From Sulfuricurvum sp. (GTDB taxonomy: Bacteria; Campylobacterota; Campylobacteria; Campylobacterales; Sulfurimonadaceae), in the NCBI RefSeq assembly GCF_022759005.1, contig NZ_JAEMQA010000043.1, positions 1 to 34,582 on the forward strand: DNA of 34,582 nucleotides. Direction: 5' to 3'. The stretch's first letter is position 1. The number at the start of each line of letters is the position of its first letter. The notes beneath the pieces are model-generated. The model was not told the origin of the DNA, made no database searches, and worked only from the letters and a program-made list of their open reading frames with translations. A program made the position numbers and the translations under genes. Of the stretch, positions 15,501-22,653 are shown in pieces.

Positions 15501-16925
15501 TCATTGAAGAAGTTTTAAAACATTTTGTTGCACCGCATTCGCTTGGCTCATCGCATAGCTTCCTGATTGTGCAAGAATATTGAATTTAGAGAAGTTCGCT
15601 GATTCAGCTGCAAAGTCAACATCACGGATTTGTGATTCAGCCGCTTTAACGTTAACTTGAGTCACTGAAATATTGTTGATGGTTGAAATCAACTGGTTTT
15701 GAGTCGAACCGAGATCCGAACGGATACCATCCAACATTTTTTGTGCCGATTGCGCAATGTCCATAACCAACATTGCCCCTTTAAGGGTAGTTACCCCTGT
15801 TCCAAGACCGGTCAATGCTGTTGCACCAGCGATATTCGCTCCTGCAGCACTCGCAGTATCTTTATCAAATTTACCGATAACATCGGTCAAACGTAAGTTT
15901 TTAACCGCTGATGATGATAGCCCCGCACCTGTTCCAGCAACTTGGATATCTCCGGCATTGAGTTTGGTCAATGTCAACCGTCCATAAAACTGAGTAGTAA
16001 GAATTAGTCCTGTCCCTCGAGAAATTTTAACCCCACGACCATCGGATTTAAGGATCAAGTGCCCATCTTTATCGGTTGATGCTTCAACGCCGGTTAGTGT
16101 TTTTTGTGCATTGATCGCATTGACCAAGCGGCCATCGCTGTCGTTTGCTAATATACCACTGATAGTACCGATTTTTACACCGTTGATTGTTAAGCTGATA
16201 GTATCACCTGCTGCAACAGCACCAAAATCTTTTGCAACCGTTGCACTTGCACGTACGCCGAGGGCATCTTGGTTTTTATTGATGATAGTTGCCAATTGTC
16301 CAAGACCGGTACCAGCACTTGTACTGACCGTGACACTCTCAAAACTCACACCATCAATTTTTAAACTGACAGTACCCGCAGCAGTAACCGATTTACCGGT
16401 TTCTGTACGAATGTGCCCGATTTGGTTTGAATTGGTCGCACCGATATTAACTTTAACGGTTTCGTTGGAAAATGCACCAACTTGGAACTCTTTGTTTGTG
16501 AATCCACCATTAAGGAGATTTTGTCCGTTAAAAGAAGTTTGAGACGCGATGTTATTCAAATTCTCCATCAATCGTGCAATATCTTTTTGAAGTGCTTGAC
16601 GAGATTGTGACGTTTGACCATCTTGTGCCGCTTGAGTCGCTTTGGTTTTAATGGTATCAAGAATTTTAAGTTGCTCATCCATCGCTTTATCAGCTGTTTG
16701 GATAATACCTACCCCATCGTTCGCATTTGCGATCGCTTGTCCGAGTGACGAAGCTTGTGAACGAAGAGAATCCGCAATCGCCATCCCTGAAGCATCATCT
16801 GCCGCACTGTTAATACGTAAACCCGATGACAGCTTAGAAAGTGAACTGTCAAGATTACGATTGTTTGCCATCGCATTAGTATGCGCATTCATCGCCGCAA
16901 TGTTTGTGTTAATTCTAAAACCCAT
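15501..16925 (-). CDS. flaB: Flagellin, sigma54-type copy
   Basis: This 474-residue flagellin is a structural subunit of the filament, exported through the flagellar channel. The conserved D0/D1 N-terminus ([35 protein letters not shown]) spans about 1-170, and the C-terminal D1/D0 part from about 385 ends [17 protein letters not shown]. The central domain is Ser/Thr-rich and is the likely glycosylation zone. It is identical to the second flagellin except for Lys versus Arg four residues from the C-terminal Gln (LKLLQ/LRLLQ), and ends in TGA rather than TAG. AGAGGA precedes the ATG by 6 nt. A sigma54-type promoter lies upstream, as for flaB of Campylobacter and Helicobacter; the flaB name is by that analogy. 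A stem-loop follows the stop. Confidence 0.95.
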
Positions 16926-17084: not shown

Positions 17085-18509
17085 CTATTGAAGAAGTCTT
17101 AAAACATTTTGTTGCACCGCATTCGCTTGGCTCATCGCATAGCTTCCTGATTGTGCAAGAATATTGAATTTAGAGAAGTTCGCTGATTCAGCTGCAAAGT
17201 CAACATCACGGATTTGTGATTCAGCCGCTTTAACGTTAACTTGAGTCACTGAAATATTGTTGATGGTTGAAATCAACTGGTTTTGAGTCGAACCGAGATC
17301 CGAACGGATACCATCCAACATTTTTTGTGCCGATTGCGCAATGTCCATAACCAACATTGCCCCTTTAAGGGTAGTTACCCCTGTTCCAAGACCGGTCAAT
17401 GCTGTTGCACCAGCGATATTCGCTCCTGCAGCACTCGCAGTATCTTTATCAAATTTACCGATAACATCGGTCAAACGTAAGTTTTTAACCGCTGATGATG
17501 ATAGCCCCGCACCTGTTCCAGCAACTTGGATATCTCCGGCATTGAGTTTGGTCAATGTCAACCGTCCATAAAACTGAGTAGTAAGAATTAGTCCTGTCCC
17601 TCGAGAAATTTTAACCCCACGACCATCGGATTTAAGGATCAAGTGCCCATCTTTATCGGTTGATGCTTCAACGCCGGTTAGTGTTTTTTGTGCATTGATC
17701 GCATTGACCAAGCGGCCATCGCTGTCGTTTGCTAATATACCACTGATAGTACCGATTTTTACACCGTTGATTGTTAAGCTGATAGTATCACCTGCTGCAA
17801 CAGCACCAAAATCTTTTGCAACCGTTGCACTTGCACGTACGCCGAGGGCATCTTGGTTTTTATTGATGATAGTTGCCAATTGTCCAAGACCGGTACCAGC
17901 ACTTGTACTGACCGTGACACTCTCAAAACTCACACCATCAATTTTTAAACTGACAGTACCCGCAGCAGTAACCGATTTACCGGTTTCTGTACGAATGTGC
18001 CCGATTTGGTTTGAATTGGTCGCACCGATATTAACTTTAACGGTTTCGTTGGAAAATGCACCAACTTGGAACTCTTTGTTTGTGAATCCACCATTAAGGA
18101 GATTTTGTCCGTTAAAAGAAGTTTGAGACGCGATGTTATTCAAATTCTCCATCAATCGTGCAATATCTTTTTGAAGTGCTTGACGAGATTGTGACGTTTG
18201 ACCATCTTGTGCCGCTTGAGTCGCTTTGGTTTTAATGGTATCAAGAATTTTAAGTTGCTCATCCATCGCTTTATCAGCTGTTTGGATAATACCTACCCCA
18301 TCGTTCGCATTTGCGATCGCTTGTCCGAGTGACGAAGCTTGTGAACGAAGAGAATCCGCAATCGCCATCCCTGAAGCATCATCTGCCGCACTGTTAATAC
18401 GTAAACCCGATGACAGCTTAGAAAGTGAACTGTCAAGATTACGATTGTTTGCCATCGCATTAGTATGCGCATTCATCGCCGCAATGTTTGTGTTAATTCT
18501 AAAACCCAT
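17085..18509 (-). CDS. flaA: Flagellin, sigma28-type copy
   Basis: This second 474-residue flagellin has the same domains as its neighbour and differs only by Arg in place of Lys in the final LRLLQ. Its 5' control region is wholly different: a near-perfect sigma28 promoter, a leader of about 60 nt with two hairpins, and AAAGGA 6 nt before the ATG. Sigma28 control is that of the major flagellin FlaA in Campylobacter and Helicobacter, and the name is given by analogy. The D1 region lacks the basic QRVRELAV-type segment recognised by TLR5 in enterobacteria, as is usual in this phylum. The stop is TAG. The near-identity of two tandem copies suggests recent gene conversion or duplication. Confidence 0.95.
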
Positions 18510-21404: not shown

Positions 21405-22256
21405 ATGTCTAAAAAAATATTTCTTTGTTCGATTTGTAACATCAATAGCGGAACGTGCAACGAAGATTGCAAGTTTTGCTCCCAAAGTGTCAAATATAAA
21501 GCCGATATTAAACGCTATCGTCAAAAGCCTATGGATCAAATCCTCGAAGAAGCACGTCGTCTTGAAGCGCTGGGCGCATTAGGGTTTTGTCTCGTTACAG
21601 CGCAAAAAGGGCTTGATGATAAAACGCTCGACTTTGTTTGTAATGTTGCGTCCACTCTTAAACGGGAAGTCCCTCGTCTTCGTCTGATCGCCTGTAACGG
21701 TACGGCGACGTTGGAACAACTGAACGAACTCAAACGTGCCGGCGTGAGTGCTTATAATCACAATCTTGAAACCAGTCGTGAATTTTATACTCAAGTATGT
21801 ACAACCCATCCGTGGGAAGAGCGATTTGAGACGTGTGAAAATGTCAATCGTTCAGGACTCAAGCTGATTAGCGGCGGGATATTCGGAATGGGTGAGACAC
21901 ATGAAGATCGTATCAGCATGCTGCACTCTTTGAATGAATTGAACCCTGTCTCTGTGCCACTCAATTTTTATCATCATAACCCGGCATTGCCGTTGCAGCC
22001 CAATCCGTTATCGATTGACGAATCGCTCGAACTTATTTCACTTGCACGGCACATTATTGCCAAGGCCGATCGCATCATGATCGCCGGAGGACGAGAAATC
22101 ACCTTCAAAGAGCGCCAACACGAGATTTTTGAAGCAGGAGCCAACAGCATTGTTATCGGAAATTATCTTACCACAGCTGGGCGAGAAGCCCATGCGGATT
22201 TGATGATGCTGCAAGAGCTTGGATTCGAGATTGCTTTATCACCTGAAGATAAGTAA
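21405..22256 (+). CDS. bioB: Biotin synthase BioB (short epsilon type)
   Basis: BioB is a radical SAM enzyme that inserts sulfur into dethiobiotin. The 283-residue protein has the cluster motif C-X3-C-X2-C at Cys18, Cys22 and Cys25 (CNEDCKFC), then GFCLVTAQ, LIACNGTAT, YNHNLETS, SGGIFGMGET and IAGGREITF. By comparison with E. coli BioB recalled from memory, the auxiliary-cluster ligands Cys97, Cys128 and Arg260 have equivalents, but the place of Cys188 is Ile in LKLISGGI. Two additional cysteines, Cys8 and Cys11, lie before the radical SAM motif. It starts 1 nt after the phosphoesterase stop; its Shine-Dalgarno (GAAAGAT) is weak. It is shorter than the E. coli enzyme (346 residues) at both ends, as in related Campylobacterota. 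Confidence 0.93.
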   Translation: MSKKIFLCSICNINSGTCNEDCKFCSQSVKYKADIKRYRQKPMDQILEEARRLEALGALGFCLVTAQKGLDDKTLDFVCNVASTLKREVPRLRLIACNGTATLEQLNELKRAGVSAYNHNLETSREFYTQVCTTHPWEERFETCENVNRSGLKLISGGIFGMGETHEDRISMLHSLNELNPVSVPLNFYHHNPALPLQPNPLSIDESLELISLARHIIAKADRIMIAGGREITFKERQHEIFEAGANSIVIGNYLTTAGREAHADLMMLQELGFEIALSPEDK

Positions 22257-22299: not shown

Positions 22300-22653
22300 A
22301 TGTCTCAATCGGTCTTATTAACCATAGCTCGTGCGTCTATCGAAGAGGTATTAAAAGCTGAAAATACGATCAACCGACAAGAACTGATAGTGACGTATCC
22401 CCTTTTAGCAGAACCAATGGCAACGCAAATCACCCTTTTTTTGGGAGATAAGGTTAGAGGAATTTCTAAAACGGAAGTTGTGAGCCGCTCGTTACTCGAA
22501 GATATTATTCATAATGCGAAAGCCGCCGCCTTTTTGGACGAAGCATTTGATCCGCTTGTCACCTCAGAATATTTACATACGACGATAGAATTAACGATAT
22601 TTTCTCCCGAAGGGGAGTTGAGCCATCGGAGTGAACCGATATTAAAAGAGTAG
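22300..22653 (+). CDS. AMMECR1-like protein, shortened
   Basis: This 117-residue protein resembles the N-terminal and central part of the AMMECR1 / AmmeMemoRadiSam protein A family: LLTIARASIEEVL, then KVRGISKTEV, SLLEDIIHNAKAAAFLDEAFDPL and TIELTIFSPEGEL. The family motif LRGCIG is changed to VRGISK, so its conserved cysteine is missing. The usual C-terminal region of about 70-80 residues is also absent. The molecular role of AMMECR1 is not settled. AAGGGG lies about 10 nt before the ATG. It follows bioB after 43 nt and is convergent with the oxidoreductase, the stops being one nt apart. The match is by eye and the function remains open. Confidence 0.6.
   Translation: MSQSVLLTIARASIEEVLKAENTINRQELIVTYPLLAEPMATQITLFLGDKVRGISKTEVVSRSLLEDIIHNAKAAAFLDEAFDPLVTSEYLHTTIELTIFSPEGELSHRSEPILKE

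Follow-up and report, generated by a model that had tools for sequence, protein, structure and literature searches.

A biotin synthase of the Campylobacterota with a putatively rearranged set of auxiliary cluster ligands

How biotin synthase (BioB) supplies the sulfur of biotin was for a long time a matter of dispute, and the answer hinges on the way in which the auxiliary cluster is bound. In the Escherichia coli enzyme, the auxiliary cysteines are essential, and changes at Arg260 are tolerated. Qu et al. (2024, PMC11099021) give Cys97, Cys128, Cys188, and Arg260 as the ligands of the E. coli [2Fe-2S] cluster, place Ser43 among the residues around it, and describe mycobacterial BioBs without the Cys128 ligand as needing a partner protein, BsaP. 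BioB enzymes with a [4Fe-5S] cluster are described for obligate anaerobes, and from type II enzymes it is argued that sulfur insertion is well served by a cluster bearing an additional ligated sulfide. Lachowicz et al. 2024 are said to report that cluster coordination in BioB varies unexpectedly, and the solved structures 8vcw (B. obeum) and 8vdw (V. parvula) are probably the type II enzymes of that study, judging from title, release date, and described class.

We analyzed a stretch of 34,582 nucleotides from Sulfuricurvum sp. (the window), in which an open reading frame at 21405-22256 on the forward strand encodes a protein of 283 amino acids without internal stops. Every model tried annotates the product as biotin synthase: it scores 444 bits against the Campylobacterota-type model NF006308 (cut-off 377) and 301 bits against TIGR00433 (cut-off 225), and it carries the Pfam domains Radical_SAM and BATS. 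A genome profile search of the assembly (1.74 Mb, 158 contigs) found this gene as the only BioB over the cut-off, and its nearest named relatives, in Sulfuricurvum genomes, are 95% identical. The same genome encodes bioA and bioD, each scoring above its cut-off, and also a bioF-like gene whose 271 bits fall short of the cut-off of 426. The window enzyme putatively converts dethiobiotin to biotin. An AlphaFold2 model built from 80 aligned sequences (mean pLDDT 89.3) ranked 8vcw, 8vdw, and the E. coli structure 1r30 at the top in Foldseek, and VIA-align superposed it on them with Z scores of 37.8 (rmsd 2.0, 279 residues), 37.4 (rmsd 1.6, 275 residues), and 35.3 (rmsd 1.9, 275 residues), respectively; the predicted fold is that of BioB throughout.

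To describe the lineage, we assembled a census of 168 Campylobacterota-type BioBs (165 distinct sequences), comprising the window gene, 80 named loci, 30 top-scoring loci (L083-L112), and 57 genus loci, a set that is unbalanced in that all 80 named loci are close to the window. The genus loci came from 60 added loci, with few exceptions a single one for each genus of the class, from which 3 were dropped before counting as other kinds (L142 with a type II pattern, L143 and L173 with a type I pattern). The radical SAM [4Fe-4S] motif CxxxCxxC (Cys18, Cys22, and Cys25; 21456-21479, forward strand, as are all residues below) aligns with E. coli Cys53, Cys57, and Cys60, and each of its cysteines is present in 168/168 sequences. 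Cys62 (21588-21590), equivalent to E. coli Cys97, is likewise invariant and is the canonical auxiliary ligand retained. Also present in every sequence are Cys8 (21426-21428), at the position of E. coli Ser43 and a proposed ligand of the auxiliary cluster; Cys97 (21693-21695), at the end of predicted strand 3 (residues 93-97) and a second proposed ligand; Ile95 (21687-21689), at the Cys128 position in a gap-free but debated register; and Met225 (22077-22079), at the position of the ligand Arg260. Cys132 (21798-21800), where E. coli has Ile165, is found in 164/168 sequences, with Val in the other 4, and is a possible fourth thiol; Cys144 occurs in 141/168. On the substrate side, the residues that correspond to E. 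coli Asn151, Asn153, and Asn222 are retained.

An earlier note on this DNA had centered on the loss of the Cys188 equivalent, and that observation holds: phmmer, hmmsearch, MAFFT, and hhalign all place Ile155 (21867-21869) in the E. coli Cys188 column, and proper alignment put no other cysteine there. With 4 alignment methods in agreement, an alignment error as the origin of Ile155 is ruled out, as is a local mutation or an assembly or sequencing fault, since the 80 closest named relatives from one scan, which belong to Sulfuricurvum, Sulfurimonas, and allied groups, all lack Cys at this position (Ile in 76, Leu in 3, and Val in 1). By these alignments, the loss is a trait of the lineage. Cys occupies the position in the 30 top-scoring loci, which are Campylobacter- or Helicobacter-like as judged from sequence, and across the 168 sequences it is Cys in 63 and another residue in 105 (Ile 87, Val 13, and Leu 5), with non-Cys residues beyond the window's family in parts of the families coded f2, f3, f6, f7, and f10. 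On a 93-row tree built by a quick method, the Cys and non-Cys states require at least 7 changes. Because Cys8, Cys62, and Cys97 are invariant and the Cys188 column varies, the canonical third cysteine appears dispensable and the other 3 do not, and emphasis on Cys188 therefore looks misplaced; Ile95 and Met225 never vary either. The same note had pointed to 2 extra N-terminal cysteines, Cys8 and Cys11. Both are present, and Cys8 is universal; Cys11 (21435-21437), with Cys in only 88/168 sequences, is not conserved and is an unlikely replacement ligand. Nor is Cys8 a specific compensation for the missing Cys188, as it is invariant also where the Cys188 equivalent is kept. Three features had gone unmentioned: the change of Arg260 to Met225, Ile95 at the Cys128 position with Cys97 2 residues on, and the extra Cys132.

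We compared BioB types at 7 positions (window positions 8/62/95/97/132/155/225). The E. coli pattern is S C C T I C R, shared by Azospirillum and Bradyrhizobium apart from positions 132 and 8; Bacilli have N C C C x C R; 2 actinobacteria, one with an adjoining BsaP gene, have E C A S V C R; and type II-like enzymes (8vcw, 8vdw, E. eligens, and Fusobacterium) have C S C S C C R, with A at position 62 in Selenomonas. The Campylobacterota type reads C C I C C (C/I/V/L) M, with Val at 132 in 4/168. Among the compared patterns, only the Campylobacterota lineage combines Ile95, Cys97, and Met225, and its residue combination differs from that of type I, that of type II, and that of the actinobacterial BioBs that depend on BsaP.

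With type I (E. coli, 1r30), the window enzyme shares the fold, the CxxxCxxC motif, the E. coli Cys97 equivalent, and the Asn residues on the dethiobiotin side; it differs by Ile for Cys188, Met for Arg260, Ile in the Cys128 column (gap-free register), the extra Cys8, Cys97, and Cys132, and an N-terminus shorter by about 35 residues. Of the type I ligand set, only Cys62 is therefore a certain equivalent, the Cys128 column holding Ile95 or, in the other register, Cys97. The type II enzymes are the closest in fold and sequence among solved structures and share Cys at positions 8 (in B. obeum, V. parvula, E. eligens, Selenomonas, and Fusobacterium) and 132 as well as His135, but they have Ser or Ala for Cys62, Cys for Ile95, Ser for Cys97, Cys for Ile155, and Arg for Met225; against the type II residue pattern at positions 8/62/95/132/155/225 (Cys, Ser, Cys, Cys, Cys, and Arg, some of them putative ligands), the window has Cys, Cys, Ile, Cys, Ile, and Met. 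The BsaP-dependent actinobacterial BioB resembles it in having lost a canonical auxiliary ligand and displaced a Cys along strand 3, but has Glu at position 8, keeps Cys188 and Arg260, and relies on a BsaP partner, none of which holds for the window enzyme. Within NF006308 (PRK08508), of which the window BioB is a member by score, the counterpart of Cys188 is missing from the Sulfurimonas/Sulfuricurvum family, whereas Campylobacter- and Helicobacter-like members keep it.

From these comparisons, we favor, with roughly even confidence, the reading that the gene encodes a functional BioB of a Campylobacterota-wide subtype, in which the auxiliary cluster would be held by Cys8, Cys62, and Cys97, its fourth site not fixed and a [4Fe]-type cluster likelier. 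As in other BioBs, SAM would be cleaved at the [4Fe-4S] cluster on Cys18, Cys22, and Cys25 in the standard way, and sulfur would be drawn from a second cluster within the barrel, bound by Cys8 on strand 1, Cys62 on strand 2, and Cys97 on strand 3 in place of E. coli Cys97, Cys128, Cys188, and Arg260. The fourth iron site may be open, sulfide-bearing, or occupied by one of the variable cysteines at 132, 155, and 156, and the donor cluster would more likely be [4Fe-4S] or [4Fe-5S] than [2Fe-2S], given 3 invariant cysteines and 2 features common to type II. The ligands, the cluster type, and the activity are inferred here from substitutions that are themselves observed, as is their invariance. 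The suggestion in the earlier note of another sulfur-donor chemistry thus survives in part, with one certain E. coli ligand kept (Cys97, as Cys62) and Cys8 at the Ser43 position, and without the role it gave to Cys11 and Cys188. Cys132 is nearly as conserved as the triad and could replace one of the 3 as ligand. The clade also sits on a long branch (1.21), so invariance may reflect common ancestry, and conservation of 3 columns within a single clade does not amount to 3 separate lines of evidence. The semi-conserved cysteines at 132 and 155 can both be lost, as in 4 sequences (L117, L148, L152, and L167) with Val at 132, Val or Ile at 155, and Cys at 156. As Cys is found in at least one of positions 132, 155, and 156 in 168/168 sequences, a fourth thiol might always be present among them, a weak suggestion because only 4 sequences lack Cys132.

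More tentatively, and with somewhat less than even confidence, we propose that BioB of the Campylobacterota, including Campylobacter- and Helicobacter-like members, forms a third structural class in which the donor cluster has shifted inside the barrel onto a unique triad of Cys8, Cys62, and Cys97, without Arg and without an obligatory fourth protein ligand. If true, this class would give microaerophiles an arrangement intermediate between the sacrificial [2Fe-2S] cluster of aerobes and the [4Fe-5S] cluster of anaerobes.

The alternative that fares best keeps a [2Fe-2S] cluster: Cys97 would act as Cys128 through a small shift of strand 3, Cys62 as E. coli Cys97, and Cys8 or Cys132 in place of Cys188, with no Arg ligand. 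The register of strand 3 is where the favored reading is weakest. Here, hmmsearch and hhalign, when run with type I sequences, opened a 2-residue gap that pairs Cys97 with E. coli Cys128, as phmmer did against E. coli, and if this pairing is right, the strand 3 ligand is kept and the rewiring is smaller. Campylobacterota are, moreover, often microaerophilic, while the [4Fe-5S] enzymes are described from obligate anaerobes. In the MAFFT alignment, however, and in every alignment to type II or Bacilli sequences, strand 3 runs without a gap and Ile95 falls in the Cys128 column, and we prefer this register because Bacilli BioBs carry Cys both at the Cys128 position and again 2 residues on; Cys at positions 8 and 132 is also common to type II, which speaks against the [2Fe-2S] arrangement. 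We regard it as possible but unlikely. Both registers leave other residues in place of Cys188 and Arg260. Across several lineages, the ligand on strand 3 seems to shift its position along the strand; among L185, L187-L189, and L193 (Bacilli and Actinobacteria), the actinobacterial sequences carry Ala at the Cys128 position and Cys after it.

Less probable by a clear step is that the auxiliary site is incomplete and that a partner protein brings the cluster or sulfur, a dependence for which mycobacterial BioBs without the Cys128 ligand, which need BsaP, set a precedent (Qu et al. 2024, PMC11099021). The BsaP model NF052237 had no match in 31/31 genomes of the genus and was positive in the Corynebacterium glutamicum control, so BsaP itself is ruled out as the partner; a single-sequence search with the Tsukamurella BsaP gave no more than an E value of 0.03 in 1 of 11 genomes. 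A partner protein unrelated to BsaP is possible. Among 4 window neighbors tested, only topA lies near bioB in all 3 locus sets (79/80 named, 16/30 top-scoring, and 36/60 other loci), and a phosphoesterase gene is near it in 80/80, 0/30, and 27/60, respectively; neither gene suggests a cluster partner. Immediately 3' of bioB, at 22300-22653 on the forward strand, lies an AMMECR1/AmmeMemoRadiSam A-like gene of 117 amino acids (model length 175) that scores below the model cut-off and has counterparts within the flanks of 48/80 named bioB loci.

It is very improbable that this radical SAM protein has degenerated or been repurposed and has ceased to make biotin. Only the canonical-ligand loss itself favors such a view, and against it stand the single BioB over the cut-off in this genome, the occurrence of bioD in 31/31 and bioA in 29/31 genus genomes (all over the cut-off), a match to the BioB family at E ≤ 0.001 in 389 of the 397 genomes of the class, with 367 scoring above the cut-off, and the carriage instead of type I BioBs by 2 genera and mostly type II BioBs by one, as expected if the step must stay.

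We surveyed these replacements in 27 genomes picked for a weak, near-cut-off, or missing BioB match. The type II pattern was found in 8 genomes of the genus coded g21, the type I pattern in 6 of g43 and 2 of g47, and the Campylobacterota pattern in 2 of g38, and the other 9 genomes had no match over the cut-off; in 7 type I rows, position 8 lies beyond the matched stretch. The type II replacements are L142, L196, L202, and L204-L209 (g21), and those of type I are L143, L173, L195, L197-L201, L203, and L210 (g43 and g47). As the lineage-specific BioB can be displaced by either known type, the survey suggests that all 3 do the same job, and the replacements offer a natural test of whether enzyme type tracks oxygen lifestyle.

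A literature search, with Lachowicz et al. 2024 outside its reach, found no cluster variant for the BioB of Campylobacterota; the kind of enzyme is known and the ligand set is apparently undescribed, and the lineage may already figure in that study. A lineage that swaps nearly all ligands and in which the Cys188 position is variable amounts to a natural set of mutants for the study of sulfur transfer and cluster renewal, and it speaks against transferring a [2Fe-2S] annotation to Campylobacterota BioBs. A search of viral contigs found no relative, and a search of the phylum returned solely genomes of the window's own order, family, or genus. Elsewhere in the window, 2 adjacent flagellin genes on the reverse strand (15501-16925 and 17085-18509) encode proteins of 474 amino acids each that are identical at 473/474 positions, probably through a recent duplication or gene conversion, and the pair adjoins a gene for a Maf-type flagellin glycosyltransferase.
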